Of a DNA stretch of 7,438 nucleotides, positions 613 to 6,111 are shown piece by piece. This DNA comes from an uncultured Clostridium sp. (GTDB taxonomy: Bacteria; Bacillota; Clostridia; Clostridiales; Clostridiaceae): positions 1 to 7,438 of the forward strand of contig NZ_CALEVF010000155.1 in NCBI RefSeq assembly GCF_937920395.1, written 5' to 3'. Position numbers and translations under genes: made by a program. A model generated the notes under the pieces. That model had not been told where the DNA came from, ran no database searches, and was given only the letters and a program-made list of their open reading frames with translations. Numbering within the stretch: position 1 is the first letter of the stretch; each line of letters starts with the position of its first letter.

Positions 613-636
613 AAATTTACCATAGCTTATCGTCAT
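613..636 (-). repeat. Weak copy of intergenic motif downstream of the immunity gene
   Basis: Read on the minus strand this is ATGACGATAAGC followed by TATGGTAAATTT. It fits the ATGTCGnAACTGTAAAATA consensus only with extra bases in the middle. It is the least certain member of the family and would mark the downstream end of the array. Confidence 0.25.
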
Positions 637-644
637 TTTATGTG

Positions 645-1103
645 CTACAAAAACTTCTTTAATTCATTAAGTTGCCATTCTCGTTCCAAGGTTATAGCAT
701 CAATATCATTGGAACTAATTAATCCTATTGTTTTTATGGCATAATCTGATGCTACCATCGCATGTTCTCTCATATGTCCACTTGATACCGCTTGACCAAC
801 TACTCTTAATGCTGTTTTCTTTATTTGTGAATCGCACTCACGAGCAATTCTGTGAATTTTAAAGCCAGCCTGCCTTACATCATACATTCTCGCTTTACCT
901 GTTTGCCATAATTCATTTACTATAAATCCATCAACTATTACATCTATCGAATTATAATCTATATCTACAGTGTCCAAAATATGTTTTGCCATTATCAGAG
1001 ACCATTTCGCTAAATCTACTTGGCTAACTTTTTCATATAATTCATTAATTTTAGCCCTTAATTCGTTATTATCTATTATCTTTATTTTCACTTTTGTTGG
1101 CAT
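645..1103 (-). CDS. Imm-5-like putative immunity protein
   Basis: This 152-residue, mostly alpha-helical protein has no signal peptide or membrane segment and should be cytosolic. I chose the start at ATG 1101-1103 because a GGGAGG site (1110-1115) lies 6 nt upstream. An in-frame ATG at 1161-1163 would add 20 residues, would read through that site, and has none of its own. The second half carries the pattern I associate with the Imm-5-like family of polymorphic-toxin immunity proteins. It has the run RQAGFKIHRIAREC (about 77-90), then ALRVVGQAVSSGH (about 98-110), then HAMVASDYAIK (about 114-124). Such proteins are thought to neutralise a cognate toxin delivered by a neighbouring cell. No toxin gene is adjacent, so it would be an orphan immunity gene in an accessory run. 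The family assignment is from memory of the motif pattern, and a plain hypothetical protein is the alternative. Confidence 0.65.
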   Translation of the reverse strand: MPTKVKIKIIDNNELRAKINELYEKVSQVDLAKWSLIMAKHILDTVDIDYNSIDVIVDGFIVNELWQTGKARMYDVRQAGFKIHRIARECDSQIKKTALRVVGQAVSSGHMREHAMVASDYAIKTIGLISSNDIDAITLEREWQLNELKKFL

Positions 1104-1143
1104 AGCATACCTCCCTAAAAATATTTGATTATTTACTTCAACA

Positions 1144-1162
1144 TATTTTACAGATGTGAACA
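1144..1162 (-). repeat. Intergenic motif copy (VOC / immunity gene gap)
   Basis: The minus-strand sequence is TGTTCACATCTGTAAAATA. It keeps the CTGTAAAATA half of the consensus exactly and only loosely matches the first half. It lies in the 84-bp gap between the VOC gene and the immunity gene. Confidence 0.4.
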
Positions 1163-1187
1163 ACTTATTAGATGGGTGCTATCTTAC

Positions 1188-1583
1188 TTACAGTGTCATC
1201 CCAATTTCTGCAAAGAGTTCATGTATATTCCCATCTGGGTCTGCAAATAATGCTGTTCTTTGTCTCCAAGGCATATCCTGTGGTTTATGGATAGGAGTTG
1301 CTCCCTTTGCAATTAGATGTGTAAATGATTCATCAACATCATTTGGATTTTCACATGGAAAAGCCAGTTCAAAAACTTGACCAATTACTGCTTTCTCATA
1401 TTCATTGTTATAAACATACATAACATCTCTCATACAAATAGCAAATCGGACGCCCTCATTTTCAAATTCAACATAATTACCAAGGTCATTTTTAATCTTA
1501 AATCCAAGAACTTGATTATAAAAATTTTTCATTTTATCTATATTATTTGTCCAAATCGTAACAAGATTAATTTTTGCTTTCAT
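1188..1583 (-). CDS. VOC (glyoxalase/bleomycin-resistance fold) family protein
   Basis: This 131-residue cytosolic protein has the two beta-alpha-beta-beta-beta halves typical of the vicinal oxygen chelate fold. The first half opens with INLVTIWTNNIDKMKNFY and GFKI (about 5-30). The second contains the hallmark close FADPDGNIHELFAE (about 113-126), in which Glu122 is the usual C-terminal metal ligand. The His normally found near the start of the first strand is absent (Val8/Thr9 region), so metal binding may be altered or lost. Members range from glyoxalases to antibiotic-binding and fosfomycin-type enzymes, and the substrate cannot be told here. An AAGGAGG site sits 8 nt before the ATG. It is a typical stand-alone accessory gene between the Nudix and immunity genes. 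Confidence 0.85.
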   Translation of the reverse strand: MKAKINLVTIWTNNIDKMKNFYNQVLGFKIKNDLGNYVEFENEGVRFAICMRDVMYVYNNEYEKAVIGQVFELAFPCENPNDVDESFTHLIAKGATPIHKPQDMPWRQRTALFADPDGNIHELFAEIGMTL

Positions 1584-1626
1584 AATAGTTTCCTCCTTCT
1601 TAATTTAATATGTGTATCGTGAATAT

Positions 1627-1645
1627 TATTTTACATTTTCGACAT
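1627..1645 (-). repeat. Intergenic motif copy (Nudix / VOC gap)
   Basis: The minus-strand sequence is ATGTCGAAAATGTAAAATA, one of the closest matches to the consensus. It lies about 45 nt upstream of the VOC start. Confidence 0.55.
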
Positions 1646-1675
1646 GACCTGTTCAGTGTATCTTTTCTTTAATAA

Positions 1676-1719
1676 TTCTTACAGTTATTATGACGAACTT
1701 TACGAATGTTACGACTTAA
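1676..1719 (-). repeat. Short 9-nt direct repeats with degenerate motif copies
   Basis: On the minus strand three consecutive 9-mers read TCGTAACAT, TCGTAAAGT and TCGTCATAA. They are followed by AATAACTGTAAG. The block resembles two overlapping, partly decayed copies of the intergenic motif (GTCGTAACATTCGTAAAG and TCGTCATAATAACTGTAAG), placed just downstream of the Nudix stop codon. Confidence 0.4.
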
Positions 1720-1725
1720 CATTTT

Positions 1726-2118
1726 CTAATTGTATTTATAGTAATCTAATAATTTTTCAGATTCATTACAACAAAAATTAAATTTTTGAATTTCAGATTT
1801 ATCAATCCATTGAATTTGCTCTATCTCCAAATTATATTGTATTTGTTCATTTATCTTACCTGTATATACAATTAATACATATCTATTATCTTGATTGATA
1901 ATATAGACTTTAAATAGTTTTAAGTCCTGAATACTACAATTAATTTCTTCCCTTACTTCTCTTCGAATACACTCTTCTGGTGTTTCATTATCTTCTAATG
2001 CCCCTCCAACAGTTTCCCACAAAAGCGAAAATTTTTTTTTAGACTTGCTCCTTTGAGCAATTAAAAGTTTATTATCATTATCTTTAATTATTATTGAGCA
2101 ACCTATATATGTATTCAC
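1726..2118 (-). CDS. Nudix hydrolase
   Basis: This 130-residue protein has the length of single-domain Nudix hydrolases, which cleave nucleoside diphosphates linked to another moiety in the cytosol. The Nudix box runs from Gly39 to Cys61. Gly39, Glu45, Arg53, Glu54, Glu57 and Glu58 are all in register with GX5EX7REUXEEXGU, so the Mg2+-binding glutamates are intact. The glycine near the end of the box is Asn60. The N-terminal strand (IGCSIIIKDNDNKLLIAQRS) and a Trp-Glu before the box (WETVGG) fit the MutT-like subgroup. The substrate cannot be predicted. A TGGAGG site lies 6 nt before the ATG. The gap to the intact GNAT gene is only 62 bp, so the two may be cotranscribed. Confidence 0.93.
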   Translation of the reverse strand: MNTYIGCSIIIKDNDNKLLIAQRSKSKKKFSLLWETVGGALEDNETPEECIRREVREEINCSIQDLKLFKVYIINQDNRYVLIVYTGKINEQIQYNLEIEQIQWIDKSEIQKFNFCCNESEKLLDYYKYN

Positions 2119-2138
2119 TTCAAACCTCCATTTATTTC

Positions 2139-2161
2139 GTAAAATTTTACTGTACCTTCAT
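2139..2161 (-). repeat. Intergenic motif copy with small palindrome (GNAT / Nudix gap)
   Basis: On the minus strand positions 2161-2143 read ATGAAGGTACAGTAAAATT, a clear variant of the motif. It overlaps a perfect 12-nt palindrome GTAAAATTTTAC (2139-2150). This is the downstream limit of recognisable homology between the two GNAT copies. Confidence 0.5.
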
Positions 2162-2180
2162 AATAAAAGAATGTTATCAA

Positions 2181-2699
2181 TTAATACTCTTCTTTTAAAA
2201 TTGCCATAATAATCTTATCATGGAATTCTCCATTTCTGTAAAATGCTTGTCTCATAACTCCTTCTGTTTTGAAGTTAGCATTAGTATAGGCTTTAATTGC
2301 TCCTATATTTTTTTCTGAGACAGTAAGCATAATTCTATTGAGCCCTAATTCATGAAAAGCATTTTTAGTTATTTCTTTCGTAATAAATGTACCAACACCT
2401 TTTTTATGATATGATTTGTCACCAATAAATATAAAGTATTCTCCAGATAAATTTGTTTCGCTTATTTGTGTTATTCCAGTATATCCAAGTAACTTTTTGT
2501 TTGTAGTATCTATATCTACTATTGCTTTATTATATGCTAATTTATCTAATAAAAGCGTATCAAACCAATGAGATATTTCATTATCAGTATTCATTTTCTG
2601 AAATAGAGATAATGAGTATTTTATAACTTCTTTATCCTTTATCCATAAATAGAAATATTCTTTATCTGATTTTTCTAAAGCTCTTAATTTAATGTCCAT
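2181..2699 (-). CDS. GNAT family N-acetyltransferase (RimJ/RimL-like)
   Basis: This 172-residue cytosolic protein has the layout of Acetyltransf_3/RimJ-RimL-type GNAT enzymes, which move an acetyl group from acetyl-CoA to an amine. The N-terminus IKLRALEKSDKEYFYLWIKD (from residue 3) is the usual opening strand and helix. The acetyl-CoA loop appears as YHKKGVGTFITKEI (motif A, roughly residues 97-110), and motif B appears as NIGAIKAYTNANFKTEG. The C-terminus FHDKIIMAIL is typical of the family. The acceptor could be a protein N-terminus, a sugar amine or a small drug-like amine. TAGGAGG lies 8 nt before the ATG. A near-identical but internally deleted copy lies at 4500-4780. Confidence 0.92.
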   Translation of the reverse strand: MDIKLRALEKSDKEYFYLWIKDKEVIKYSLSLFQKMNTDNEISHWFDTLLLDKLAYNKAIVDIDTTNKKLLGYTGITQISETNLSGEYFIFIGDKSYHKKGVGTFITKEITKNAFHELGLNRIMLTVSEKNIGAIKAYTNANFKTEGVMRQAFYRNGEFHDKIIMAILKEEY

Positions 2700-2747
2700 A
2701 TAACTTGCCTCCTATTACACTCATATCAGCATTTAATCAAGTGGCAC

Positions 2748-2766
2748 CATTTAACAGTTACGACAC
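2748..2766 (-). repeat. Intergenic motif copy (hexapeptide transferase / GNAT gap)
   Basis: The minus-strand sequence is GTGTCGTAACTGTTAAATG. It matches the copy at 4829-4847 at most positions and forms the upstream limit of the duplicated GNAT unit. Confidence 0.55.
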
Positions 2767-2820
2767 CTTAAATGAAGGATGTGAATCAACTTCAACTTTA
2801 AATTATGCTCATATATTATT

Positions 2821-3402
2821 TTAATTGTTATCTCTTATAACTTTACATGGATTTCCATAGGCTACTTTATTATCTGGAATTGATTTAGTTACAACACTAC
2901 CTGCACCAACTGTAACATTATTTCCAATATTAACACCTGGTAAAATAATAGTACCTCCACCAATCCAAACATTATCACCTATAGTAACAGGTGCAGTTAA
3001 TGACTTACAAAATGAAAAAGCACCATTCTCATTTAAAGTGAATCTTTCTGTTGCATTTATTGGATGAAAAACAGTATAAATTTGTACATTAGAAGCAATA
3101 AGTGCATTATTACCAATAATAATTTTATTGCAATCTAAAAAAGTACAATTCATATTAATCTCACAGTTATTTCCTATATATATATTATTTCCATAATCAA
3201 TAAAGAATGGAGCTGTAATCCATAAATTTGCCCCTCTTGAACCTAAAAGTTCGTTTAATATTTGTTCTTGTTTTTCTTTCAATTCATAATCTAATTGATT
3301 ATATATTCTTATTAAATTTTTAGCTTTATGCCATTGTTTTAATAACTCTTCATCACCACAATTATACAATTCCCCAGCTAACATTTTTTCCCGTTCTGTC
3401 AT
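2821..3402 (-). CDS. Hexapeptide-repeat O-acetyltransferase (maltose/galactoside type), copy B
   Basis: This is a 193-residue cytosolic enzyme of the left-handed beta-helix class (maltose, galactoside and NodL acetyltransferases), which acetylates sugar hydroxyls with acetyl-CoA as a trimer. The N-terminal mat domain is seen as MTEREKMLAGELYNCGDEEL. Hexapeptide turns follow (IGNNCEI, IGNNALI, IGDNVWI, IGNNVTV), with the long loop carrying the likely catalytic His in VFHPINATER. The end is GNPCKVIR. The ATG at 3400-3402 is preferred because GGGGG (3410-3414) lies 7 nt upstream; an ATG two codons earlier would leave only 1 nt. It is clearly diverged from the neighbouring copy A (3755-4345), so the pair is not a recent tandem duplication. 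Confidence 0.9.
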   Translation of the reverse strand: MTEREKMLAGELYNCGDEELLKQWHKAKNLIRIYNQLDYELKEKQEQILNELLGSRGANLWITAPFFIDYGNNIYIGNNCEINMNCTFLDCNKIIIGNNALIASNVQIYTVFHPINATERFTLNENGAFSFCKSLTAPVTIGDNVWIGGGTIILPGVNIGNNVTVGAGSVVTKSIPDNKVAYGNPCKVIRDNN

Positions 3403-3497
3403 ACTCATTCCCCCATTTTATATAACAATTTTTGATAAAAAATAAAATACAAGTATGTCCTTATTTAATTATATAGAATATTAATATAAATCTCAAA

Positions 3498-3515
3498 TAT
3501 TTTACATAAAGACAT
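3498..3515 (-). repeat. Intergenic motif copy (between hexapeptide transferases)
   Basis: The minus-strand sequence is ATGTCTTTATGTAAAATA. It is one base shorter than the consensus and closest to the copy at 1627-1645. Confidence 0.4.
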
Positions 3516-3654
3516 CAATTTTAAACACAGCATAATTTTCAATGAGGCAATGCACTATTTACTATAAATAAAGTTAAATAGTACTGTATTTCCATTTACG
3601 GCCATCAACCTATTATTACCGTATATAATATTGCCTTTAATTTTGGATCAAGTT

Positions 3655-3712
3655 TTAAAACACAAAGGTAATTAGGCGAGGGCCCCACTCTACTAATTAC
3701 CTTTGTATTTTT
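3655..3712 (-). terminator. Strong hairpin, terminator of hexapeptide transferase copy A (possibly bidirectional)
   Basis: Perfect 14-bp arms, ACAAAGGTAATTAG (3662-3675) and its complement (3693-3706), enclose a 17-nt GC-rich loop containing GGGCCCC. On the plus strand it is followed by six T residues. On the minus strand a GTGTTTT tract follows, and an A-rich run precedes the stem. It lies about 50 bp after the stop of the 4345-3755 gene, so it most likely ends that transcript. Confidence 0.7.
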
Positions 3713-3754
3713 TATTTATAGTTACAGAGTATAAGAATGTTGCAAATTACATTT

Positions 3755-4345
3755 CTATACTTCAAATCCAGTTCTATCTTCTTCTGTAATTTCTCTAATT
3801 ACTTTACATGGTACACCAGCTGCCATTACATTTGCTGGAATACTTTTTGTAATAACACTACCCGACCCTATAATTGTATTATCTCCAATATTAACACCTT
3901 GATTTATATTAACTCCTGCTCCAATCCATACGTTATTGCCTATCTTTACAGGTTTTGCATAACAACCACCTGCTACTCGTTCTTTTGCATACATTGCATG
4001 ATTAGATGTATAAATTCCAACTCGTGGTCCAAATAAAACATTATTTCCTATATTTATCTCTCCACCATCTAACATTACACAATCGAAATTGGCATAAAAA
4101 TTATCTCCTATTGCAATATTAAAACCAAATTCACATCGAAAATTTGGTTCAAAATGTACTCCATCTCCAATACTTTTCAGTAGCCTTTTTAATATTTCTT
4201 CTCTTTCATGATTGGGTTTACCAAAACTATTATTATATTCATTTGTAAGAAATACCGTATTTTCTCTTGTTTGAATTAATTCTGTTGTTAAATCGTTATA
4301 CATTTTACCAGATAAAATCAATTGTTTCTGTTCTTCTAAAGTCAT
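3755..4345 (-). CDS. Hexapeptide-repeat O-acetyltransferase (maltose/galactoside type), copy A
   Basis: This 196-residue left-handed beta-helix acetyltransferase is of the same class as copy B. It opens with the mat domain (EEQKQLILSGKMYNDLTTEL) and continues with a helical linker ending in LKRLLKSIG. The hexapeptide coils follow (FRCEFGFNIAIGDNF, INIGNNVLFG, VKIGNNVWIGAG, VNIGDNTIIGSG), and the usual AAGVPCKVIRE finishes the fold. The presumed catalytic His lies in YTSNHAMYAKER. It carries a short C-terminal extension (EEDRTGFEV). TGGAGG sits 7 nt before the ATG. A TATAAT hexamer (4366-4371) lies just upstream but without a recognisable -35, so a promoter there is uncertain. The acceptor sugar or xenobiotic is not predictable. 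Confidence 0.92.
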   Translation of the reverse strand: MTLEEQKQLILSGKMYNDLTTELIQTRENTVFLTNEYNNSFGKPNHEREEILKRLLKSIGDGVHFEPNFRCEFGFNIAIGDNFYANFDCVMLDGGEINIGNNVLFGPRVGIYTSNHAMYAKERVAGGCYAKPVKIGNNVWIGAGVNINQGVNIGDNTIIGSGSVITKSIPANVMAAGVPCKVIREITEEDRTGFEV

Positions 4346-4461
4346 AAGATAACCTCCAGCCCACTATTATAAAAGGTATATTCGCTAATAACATTTGTTT
4401 GTTTTTCATTTATTAATCTACCCCATCTTATTAATTATTTTAGAGTTTTGTTAATACAGAT

Positions 4462-4480
4462 TATTTTACTGTTCCGTCAT
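4462..4480 (-). repeat. Intergenic motif copy (GNAT remnant / hexapeptide transferase gap)
   Basis: The minus-strand sequence is ATGACGGAACAGTAAAATA, a close match to the consensus. It marks the downstream limit of the shortened GNAT unit. Confidence 0.55.
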
Positions 4481-4499
4481 ATTGAAAAAATATTGTAAA

Positions 4500-4780
4500 T
4501 TAATAATCTTCTTTTAAAATTGCCATAATAATCTTATCATGGAATTTTCCATTTCTGTAAAATGCTTGTCTCATAACTCCTTCTGTTTTGAAGTTAGCAT
4601 TAGTATAGGCTTTAATTGCTCCTATATTTTTTTCTGAGACAGTAAGCATAATTCTATTGAGTCCTAATTCATGAAAGGCATTTTTAGTTATTTCTTTCGT
4701 AATAAATGTACCAACACCTTTTCTATGATATGATTTCATTCTTTATCTGATTTTTCTAAAGCTCTTAATCTAATATCCAT
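4500..4780 (-). pseudogene. Internally deleted GNAT acetyltransferase copy
   Basis: The original start (4778-4780) and its TAGGAGG site are intact, but only 14 codons (MDIRLRALEKSDKE) remain before a TGA at 4736-4738. The deletion removed the region encoding most of the first half of the enzyme and shifted the frame. The C-terminal half survives as an open frame from ATG 4737-4739 to 4500 (79 residues). It includes acetyl-CoA motif A (YHRKGVGTF) and motif B, with only three differences from the intact protein over 78 residues. The stop and new start overlap as ATGA, so translation by reinitiation is possible. Even so, half a GNAT fold is unlikely to be an active enzyme. Few substitutions mean the duplication is recent. 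Confidence 0.85.
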
Positions 4781-4828
4781 ATAACATGCCTCCTATTACA
4801 CTCATATCAGCAGTTAATTAAGTTGAAA

Positions 4829-4847
4829 TATCTAACAGTTGCGACAT
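4829..4847 (-). repeat. Intergenic motif copy (fmt / GNAT remnant gap)
   Basis: The minus-strand sequence is ATGTCGCAACTGTTAGATA. It is the rightmost copy seen and marks the upstream limit of the accessory run; I found no copy between fmt and the sensor kinase. Confidence 0.55.
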
Positions 4848-4852
4848 TTATG

Positions 4853-4880
4853 AATATTATGAACCAATAATCATAATATT
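4853..4880 (-). terminator. Weak hairpin downstream of fmt
   Basis: Perfect 9-bp arms AATATTATG (4853-4861) and CATAATATT (4872-4880) enclose a 10-nt loop, 33 bp after the fmt stop codon. There is no T-run on the minus strand, so it is at best a poor terminator or an RNA 3'-end stem. Confidence 0.3.
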
Positions 4881-4912
4881 TAAGTCCTATATAGATTATT
4901 AATCAATTATGA

Positions 4913-5866
4913 TTATGATAATACAATGCCTTTTTCTATTTTATTTCCTTTTAAAAATTCTTTTACCTCAAGAGGTTTCCCCCCTGGAAACTGTAATATT
5001 TCTATAATCAGAATACCGTTATTGGTGGCGACTGTAATTCCTTCATTATTTGCATCTATGATATAACCAGGTGGTTTAATAATATTTGCCTCCAATGACT
5101 TGGATTTGAATATTTTAATTGAAATATCTTTATAATAAGTATGAGCAGTTGGCCATGAGTTTATATTTTTATATGGCCAATAACTCAATCCTCTTATTAA
5201 ATTATGTATTTTAATACTACTGTCATTCCAATTAATCTTTGCCATTTGCTTGTTTAACATCTGTACATAAGAACTTCCATCACTCTGTTGTTTTACCCCA
5301 CAAATTTCACCTGTTATAATTCCATTTATTGTTTCCTCTAACAGTTCAGCACCGTTTATTTTTAATAAGTTGTACAATTCTCCTGCTGTCATAGATTCAG
5401 ATATGTCAAACTCACTTCTCATAAGTATATCACCCGTATCTATACCAGTATCCATTAGTATAGTTGTATTTCCAGTTGTTATTTCCCCATTTATTAAACT
5501 CCAATTTATTGGTGCTGACCCCCTATACATTGGGAGGAGGGATGCATGTAGACAAATACATCCGAGTCTTGGTATGTCAAGTATTTGCTTAGTTATGATT
5601 TGACCATATGCTACAACAATAATAAAATCTGGTTTTATTTCTTTTAATTTATCAATAATTACAGAGTCTGTTCTTATTTTTTCCGGCTGGAAAATTGGAA
5701 TTTGATTCGATAATCCGACCTCTTTGATTGGTGAAATTGCTACCTTTTTCCCTCTTCCACTTGGTTTATCAGGTTGTGTTACAATCGCACTTACATTATA
5801 TTTCTCTATCATTTTCTTCAATGAGGGAACTGCAAAATCAGGAGTTCCCATAAAAACTATTTTCAT
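4913..5866 (-). CDS. fmt: Methionyl-tRNA formyltransferase (variant active site)
   Basis: The 317-residue length and two-domain layout match Fmt, which formylates Met-tRNA(fMet) from 10-formyl-tetrahydrofolate in the cytosol. The N-terminal Rossmann domain opens MKIVFMGTPDFAVPSL. The tRNA-contacting loop is DKPSGRGKK (33-41), followed by SPIKEVGL and FQPEKIR. The active-site segment is HASLLPMYRGSAPI (107-120), and the catalytic Asp lies in GIDTGD (Asp143). The C-terminal tRNA-binding domain covers about 205-317. Unusually, the N-x-H motif reads C-x-H (Cys105, His107): the Asn seen in E. coli and B. subtilis Fmt is missing. GGGAGG lies 8 nt before the ATG. The gene stands alone, without def or priA, beside accessory genes, so it may be a second Fmt or a divergent formyltransferase. 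By overall sequence it is Fmt. Confidence 0.93.
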   Translation of the reverse strand: MKIVFMGTPDFAVPSLKKMIEKYNVSAIVTQPDKPSGRGKKVAISPIKEVGLSNQIPIFQPEKIRTDSVIIDKLKEIKPDFIIVVAYGQIITKQILDIPRLGCICLHASLLPMYRGSAPINWSLINGEITTGNTTILMDTGIDTGDILMRSEFDISESMTAGELYNLLKINGAELLEETINGIITGEICGVKQQSDGSSYVQMLNKQMAKINWNDSSIKIHNLIRGLSYWPYKNINSWPTAHTYYKDISIKIFKSKSLEANIIKPPGYIIDANNEGITVATNNGILIIEILQFPGGKPLEVKEFLKGNKIEKGIVLS

Positions 5867-5886
5867 TATTGATACCTCCCTTTGAT

Positions 5887-5908
5887 ACTACAAAATATAT
5901 TTTGTAGT
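5887..5908. promoter_or_regulatory. Perfect 22-nt palindrome in fmt leader (operator or RNA hairpin)
   Basis: The half-site ACTACAAAATA is followed directly by its exact complement. The palindrome starts 7 nt upstream of the fmt ribosome binding site (5875-5880) and lies about 40 nt downstream of the predicted transcription start. It could bind a dimeric repressor as a roadblock, or fold in the mRNA next to the ribosome binding site. The half-site does not let me name a regulator. Confidence 0.6.
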
Positions 5909-5945
5909 TACACAATATTCTACGATGTTGTCTTAATTAATAGTA

Positions 5946-5954: not shown

Positions 5955-6111
5955 TGTTTAATATGTATAATCTTGTTTCATTTGTAATAACACGGTAATT
6001 TATTTCAATTTATAATTTATCCCTATTATTAACATACCAAATAACATATATACTTACATAAACAACAGCTAATGTAGTAAGGATCCTTCGCGTTATATAT
6101 GTAATTCAAAG
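5955..6111. other. Non-coding DNA between the fmt promoter and the kinase-side terminator
   Basis: This stretch is AT-rich, with no supported gene, hairpin or copy of the intergenic motif on either strand. Confidence 0.5.

Follow-up and report, generated by a model that had tools for sequence, protein, structure and literature searches.

A recurring intergenic site at the edges of single-gene units in a clostridial array: possible cassette-like exchange

Introduction

What separates the small accessory genes that lie one after another on a contig of an uncultured Clostridium sp. (NCBI RefSeq assembly GCF_937920395.1, contig NZ_CALEVF010000155.1), and can they move singly? The stretch analysed, 7,438 nucleotides long and called the window here, carries an array of single genes on the minus strand: an fmt-like gene, a truncated GNAT, two hexapeptide acetyltransferases, a GNAT, a Nudix gene, a VOC gene and an Imm5-like gene. 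A 19-nt motif had been noticed in nearly every gap between them, and the original prediction suggested an integron cassette array with the motif as unit boundary. Judged from the sequence, we tentatively favour, at slightly short of an even chance, a site at which a recombinase exchanges single-gene units as cassettes, with the 19-nt motif as its right half. Cassette capture is known mainly from integrons, best known in Gram-negative bacteria. If true, the reading would add a new gene-shuffling route in Gram-positive clostridia, with single genes exchanged at fixed points around a short site; the boundaries are known almost to the base, so the idea is open to a direct bench test. The sample, reached via a protein scan with the window GNAT, comprised 17 genomes of the genus (G001, G007-G022) and G002-G006; the scan had matches at loci of named species.

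The inter-unit site

The site is intergenic and about 58 bp long. Its left half is TTAnTTCGnAATATTC, its core nTAAACTWCGTCACAAYTG (19-22 nt, preceded by TTC) and its right half G|TAnnnT..., where the bar marks the edge of a unit. The 19-nt motif corresponds to the right half, while the left half and the core had been overlooked. All five main copies of the motif were found on the minus strand where they had been placed, but four of them are two pairs made by duplication of the GNAT unit: positions 2144-2766 recur as 4463-4846/4847, and the similarity stops at the motif on both sides. In the second copy (b) the gene is shorter by an internal loss of about 240 bp, and G001:C48 (L067) has a GNAT copy in which another internal piece is deleted. 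A matrix of the five copies ranked all of them above the best other matches in the window (5821 +, 15.0 bits; 3384 -, 11.7 bits; both inside genes), but with each copy left out in turn two of the five dropped below the 5821 match. Because of the duplication, the test of the site was built on sites of other genomes only. A search of 1.68 Mb from relatives gave 66 rows with up to 6 mismatches, many of which look like chance at 5-6 mismatches, and which include one site of the window (1706). Model R1, with 58 positions, was made from 23 of the 27 sites with up to 4 mismatches, all from other genomes and none from the window; L183, L228, L122 and L237 were omitted, being from the same locus, near-duplicates, connected with the window, or variants.

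Six matches with E up to 0.05 were obtained with model R1 in the window, five of them on the gene strand. The best, a full-length site in the Nudix/VOC gap (1664-1721 -, 29.4 bits, E 4.6e-9), encloses a copy at 1698-1719 that had been called loose. It is followed by the site between fmt and GNAT copy b (4818-4868 -, E 1.6e-4), the right half in the VOC/Imm5 gap (1132-1159 -, E 0.0059), the left half after hexapeptide transferase A (3728-3752 -, E 0.0062) and the site between GNAT copy a and Nudix (2161-2185 -, E 0.036; in all 2150-2185, mainly left half). The third best of these matches coincides with the supposedly weaker copy 1144-1162. The sixth match, 4450-4503 + (E 0.032), lies on the wrong strand and counts against the pattern.

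Dinucleotide shuffles of nine gaps, in which the lowest possible single-gap p is 1/401, placed at least one half of the site in all seven gaps between units with p up to 0.020. Both halves were found in the fmt/GNATb gap (p 0.002 each) and at 2741-2791 - between hexapeptide transferase B and GNAT copy a (left p 0.002, right p 0.012); the right half of the VOC/Imm5 gap reached p 0.002, and the GNATa/Nudix site p 0.005 on the left and 0.21 on the right. The site between GNAT copy b and hexapeptide transferase A (4455-4504 -) is degenerate (right p 0.020, left p 0.13), and there the wrong strand equals the right one (0.017 vs 0.020). Combined over the nine gaps by Fisher's method, p on the gene strand was 8e-8 for the left half and 1.5e-7 for the right half; the other strand gave 0.04 and 0.02. 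Leaving out the two gaps duplicated with the GNAT unit changed these values to 2e-6 and 5e-6 on the gene strand and to 0.04 and 0.06 on the other. Since the matches of the model, which was built independently of the window, and the shuffles agree, the recurrence is confirmed as a pattern beyond chance, of which the 19-mer is one half. The copy at 613-636 found no support (right half p 0.96, left half 0.155). Those at 1627-1645 and 3498-3515 scored only 3.3 and 2.2 bits with the model, but relatives have a unit edge at both. The gap between fmt and the kinase, supposed to be free of the motif, is not quite empty, since upstream of fmt there is a weak right half at 5909-5934 (p 0.012, against 0.025 on the wrong strand).

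Across the genomes, the strict 17-mer with one mismatch gave 15 matches against 26 for its backwards control in six genomes (G001 alone 7 against 1). The short motif alone is therefore unusable genome-wide, but a 24-mer core pattern with up to 3 mismatches, taken from the longer site, was enriched, with 20 matches in 11 of the 17 genomes against 6 for the backwards pattern. Contigs of G018 hold repeated copies of the site between single genes, near-perfect in the arrays L233-L236. Some inter-unit slots in G018 are filled by a repeated element of about 146 bp with many copies (L233, also L247; L273, L268), which has a terminator-like hairpin at its start (GACGTCACAAAC...GTTTGTGGCG-TTTT) and the end GAATCGTAGAATA. 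Terminal inverted repeats were considered as well: the arms of the site are partly inverted by eye, but RNAalifold pairs none of them, and no claim is made.

Edges of the units

The edges were placed by hand with the patterns already seen, hence not blind, and the result lies in the fall in identity rather than in the position. The left edge G|TAnnn is common to seven recurring unit families, a G preceding it in 25 of 25 cases, and the right edge TTC| to four families (14 edges). Close copies of a unit often disagree in the three bases after TA. At the boundary the two GNAT copies have GTTAGAT and GTTAAAT, the other left edges GTAnnn. Of 20 pairs compared at the right edge, 19 dropped from an identity of 0.83-1.0 within the unit to 0.41-0.57 beyond it (background mean 0.48, 95th percentile 0.568); only L261-L262 remained high, at 0.82 outside. 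Beyond the left edge, the sequence further out mostly differs between copies.

Comparison of the window with the 17 genomes by blastn gave the same picture. The hexapeptide B block 2774-3504 is 98 % identical in L131 with exact ends, a piece 4365-4469 is found at 97 % in relatives, and fmt blocks run from 4846 or 4852 to 5910 at 95-97 %, while three further fmt copies stop earlier at the 3' side (4871, 4883, 4908). An Imm5 block covers 601-1160 at 90 %, and a fragment that stops at 1152 has 95 %. The ends of the VOC matches are less exact (a fragment to 1620 at 94 %; 1203-1611 at 86 %). Nudix 1635-2139 (80 %), hexapeptide A 3753-4358 (88-89 %) and GNAT 2181-2714 (85 %) comprise the gene and little more, and are uninformative on the site. 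High-identity blocks thus end at or near the motif, at 3504, 4469, 4846/4852, 2774 and 1160/1152, and less exactly at 1611/1620, as had been foreseen for an alignment of strains. An all-against-all census of edges mixes syntenic and mobile blocks, and no count was drawn from it. The accessory fmt-like unit is present at 95-97 % in six other genomes, at different places and with different sequence past its edges. This fmt-like gene is a mobile single-gene unit; in the window, the duplicated GNAT and the hexapeptide transferase genes belong to the recurring units as well.

Could the edges mark a function rather than a break? A serious rival, which we consider rather unlikely, takes the site as a promoter and 5' regulatory region under selection and explains movement of the units by homologous or illegitimate recombination of the ordinary kind; the edges would then fall at the -10 box and past the terminator since only functional sequence stays alike. 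The TAnnnT at the left edge is indeed -10-like, but units of 94-98 % identity still stop abruptly where neutral sequence should match too. Promoter-like hexamers occur in several slots, though the window total is 56 against 52.4 expected, and a truncated VOC copy (L121) and a gene-less 105-nt piece (L122) retain the same left edge. Terminator-like hairpins are visible by eye in some slots; identity falls as sharply at TTC| as at the left edge. A further point for the promoter explanation is a similar GACGTAGTTG-TAAAATA motif within the cassettes of attC arrays of the genus.

Exchange at a single locus

The fmt locus of G001 is syntenic in G012 and G009, with the common flanks TTAAGTCRGTTT on the left and TTCWTMAACTACRTCAC on the right. 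In G001 the slot between them is occupied by fmt; in G012 it contains a short frame that looks by eye like a membrane protein, and in G009 a GNAT-like frame of 178 aa. The core at this locus is nearly constant, with 1 to 3 differences per 22 bases, though the unit changes. Of the other differences between these genomes around the locus, the three inspected fall outside sites. Block ends, common edges and this exchange in one slot together support the view that the motif marks boundaries used in gain and exchange of single genes.

attC arrays and recombinases in the genus

Are the units ordinary integron cassettes? An attC geometry search found none in the gaps of the window array; the sole match in the window, 6038-6099, was on both strands and upstream of fmt. 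Folding of each gap gave nothing strong (z -1.84 to +0.47). In 40 kb (G010, L138 and L139) the same geometry search found about ten attC-like sites, with a few chance matches. Across the fetched loci it gave 25 rows, of which 24, all but L195, are attC-like by inspection; these come from G010, G018, G019 and G020. Clostridial chromosomes of these four genomes contain attC cassette arrays (L138:13000-18710, L139, L164, L165, L166, L170, L172, L180). The suggested presence of cassette arrays in a clostridium is supported for the genus. For the window array an integron is not supported: no attC was found in the array gaps, the core is mostly static, and 0 of 17 genomes exceeds the TIGR02249 cut-off. 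In seven of eight consecutive pairs of G010, compared by eye, every base of the cassette start is complementary to the R'' of the attC that belongs to this cassette (e.g., GTTAGATG, CATCTAAC); the eighth pair agrees in 7 of 8 bases. Intron-like insertions with frames resembling reverse transcriptases (by eye from translation) follow the attC core GTTA or GTTG.

A decayed ordinary integron array (cluster of attC sites lacking integron integrases, CALIN), with eroded attC hairpins and with fmt and the others as normal cassettes, would fit some of these observations. The fmt unit and a membrane-protein unit do lie inside attC cassettes of G010, but the fmt unit is narrower than the cassette enclosing it. 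G|TWnnnT resembles the attC core GTTRRRY (as described in PMC12901181). The gaps of the window gave no R''/R' pair and no strong hairpin, with the limit that the pattern requires TAAC and GTTA and a badly eroded attC would escape it; in the G018 arrays L233-L236 the attC scan gave none, and there the inter-unit site is near-perfect. We regard this explanation, already weakened, as highly improbable.

A 350-aa tyrosine recombinase gene stands directly before the first attC, on the strand of the cassettes, in G018 and G019; in G010 the corresponding gene is split into two partial frames. For the G019 recombinase the score was 216.5 bits with TIGR02249, below the cut-off of 265, and 216.6 bits with the XerA-type family NF040815, whose cut-off is 220. 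TIGR02249 matches in all 14 control genomes as well, hence only scores and context were used. In the alignment with IntI4 (2A3V), residues 182-238 are skipped against 15 in the query, about 42 residues short, consistent with loss of the IntI-specific domain, which PMC9668308 names as a defining characteristic. The G018 and G019 proteins appear, by their sequence, to be IntI/XerA-like recombinases without this domain. If so, a genus that also has attC arrays would offer a natural test of the role of the domain.

IS91-like elements

The array of the window ends at an IS91-like remnant (insertion sequence, IS; 326-605 +), a 3' or right end with 73-97 % similarity to multi-copy ends in the genus. 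Full copies elsewhere carry a tyrosine recombinase frame and an IS91 transposase frame; in L139 these encode a 286-aa recombinase of the same type as the 350-aa protein of G019 and an IS91 transposase (476 bits, NF033538). Elements of this kind with a tyrosine recombinase are in or near such arrays, as if the arrays were a preferred target of them. In L139:14217-14245, L097, L169 and L170, IS91-like elements adjoin sequence like the inter-unit site or unit ends.

In the IS91/ISCR family (ISCR, insertion sequence common region), capture at one end is an established process. Its elements might have moved the units by rolling-circle (ISCR-like) transposition, with TTC as terminal or target end, and the remnant at the border of the window array would suit this second serious rival, which we nevertheless hold to be quite unlikely. 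Right ends of the elements have CCTATTC in 7 of 12 and a final TTC in 9 of 12, as the units do; the count includes the window and omits L151, since this is a copy of L177. However, both ends of the units are fixed, and one-ended events leave one variable end. Left ends read GAACTAAACCGC in most aligned copies, with a variant GCACTAAACCGC among the matches listed in the edge census, and GAACTAAACCGC often follows unit-end-like sequence, but the units carry neither GAACTAAACCGC nor CCAAACCTATTC; by eye, they have at most the last TTC in common with the IS ends.

A possible mechanism

Fixed edges at both ends, the exchange in one slot and the duplication in the window make site-specific exchange the best reading, in which enzyme and geometry are inferred. 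An enzyme would make the breaks at G|TA and TTC|, most likely one of the XerA/IntI-like tyrosine recombinases, a group that genomes of the genus carry next to attC arrays and inside IS91-like elements. The core, mostly staying with its locus, would serve as docking site and may provide the incoming gene with a promoter directly in front of it. The window would then be a partly decayed array of such units that ends at the IS91-like remnant.

Several results weigh against site-specific exchange. Neither an integrase nor a recombinase was seen in the window. For near-identical fmt and hexB units, and for most nudix2 units, the core between TTC| and G|TA changes from place to place (the names HD, cupin, nudix2 and membrane protein were given by eye to units outside the window). 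It mostly does not move with the unit on either side, contrary to what a simple model of circle integration predicts. Exceptions are L261/L262, which agree beyond both nudix2 edges, and one cupin unit (L233/L265) that keeps a similar core. As the core varies by place and is nearly constant at the exchange locus while the unit changes, what moves is mostly the unit alone. A search for empty sites found none, a target-site duplication was not seen by eye, and RNAalifold predicted no common fold and no pair for the site. G|TAnnnT resembles a -10 box. Outside the left edge, identity exceeded the 95th percentile of the background in 11 or 12 of 43 pairs (one printed as 0.57), which may partly be due to the site's own consensus; one pair, L261-L262, shares its flanks. 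Inside the left edge, two membrane-protein pairs had only 0.59-0.61 and ten fmt pairs 0.61-0.64, the latter because the window and L142 are without a short stretch there.

In a more specific form, the genus would possess a second, attC-free cassette system, in which G|TA/TTC| units are swapped at chromosomal docking sites with a fixed double-stranded core of 19-22 nt by an IntI/XerA-like recombinase without the integron-specific domain, and which an IS91-like element spreads. This combination is possible, though we would call it doubtful.

Relation to known systems

The arrays resemble integron cassettes in their tandem single-gene accessory units, the single orientation, a gene pool overlapping within the genus and, tentatively, the sharp boundary after G (G|TW in the units, G|TTRRRY in integrons; core consensus and crossover point of attC as given in PMC12901181). 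They differ in that no attC hairpin was found, no R''/R' pairing was seen with the unit's own start, the core mostly stays at the locus and no integrase is over the IntI cut-off. Cassettes integrated at attG sites are expressed from nearby promoters, and at their right junction the attC of the cassette remains. The entry of cassettes into chromosomal sites is a likeness to this attG route (Loot et al. 2024, cited in PMC12901181), in which integron cassettes integrate into chromosomes; unlike there, no attC was seen at the junctions of the window. A pdif module has an inversely oriented 28-bp XerC-6-XerD site on each flank. Modules shuffled between short sites are described for pdif on Acinetobacter plasmids (PMC13141974), and insertion sequences target pdif sites according to PMC10132070. 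The present sites, whose core looks dif/pdif- and attI-like by eye, are far less conserved than pdif, are located on chromosomal contigs, have one orientation in the window and have the boundaries outside the core. IS91/ISCR elements mobilise neighbouring genes. The likeness to them consists in the elements in or near arrays and in the TTC| right end of most copies, the difference in the two fixed ends of the units and the lack of IS termini.

A review names Firmicutes among the phyla with integrons (PMC8618304), and an older survey reported none among 103 complete Firmicutes genomes (PMC2426708). Judged by titles and beginnings of abstracts, the open-access literature contained, among the matches listed, no description of clostridial chromosomal integrons or of the present site, which is weak evidence of absence.

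Organisation of the window

Next to the IS91-like remnant, the Imm5-like unit covers 605-1150 - (gene within 645-1163; PF21805), with an approximate right edge and a left edge G|TA at 1150 that is common to L119, L133 and L123. A relative of Imm5 is present on one viral contig. The VOC (glyoxalase-like) unit, 1188-1633 - (PF12681/PF00903), shares its left edge G|TA at 1633 with L121. The edges of the Nudix unit, 1704-2149 - (gene 1726-2118; PF00293), come from the site and the motif only (left-half p 0.002). GNAT copy a, the unit duplicated in the window, occupies 2169-2754 - (gene 2181-2699; PF13302), and the hexapeptide acetyltransferase B unit 2774-3504 - (gene 2821-3408), with the same ends as its block in L131. 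The hexapeptide A unit follows at 3735-4468 - (gene 3755-4345); its right edge was placed from the site, and its left edge is common to L122, at 97 % over 105 nt. The internally deleted GNAT copy b is found at 4488-4835 - (frame 4500-4739), with an approximate 3' edge. The last unit, fmt-like, spans 4852-5922 - (gene 4913-5866), with the left edge G|TA at 5922 and the right edge TTC| at 4852; its product belongs to the methionyl-tRNA formyltransferase family (TIGR00460, 279.8 bits).

Rfam models had no match in the window, and comparison with plasmids gave matches at gene level only (33 records, 60-80 %). Positions 1-333 are the end of another multi-copy element, located at many contig ends in the genus. 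Positions 3442-3632 contain an intergenic repeat, at most about 190 bp long, that has copies in G001, G009, G010, G014 and G018; it has a strong promoter-like TTGAGA-17-TATAAT and precedes different genes.

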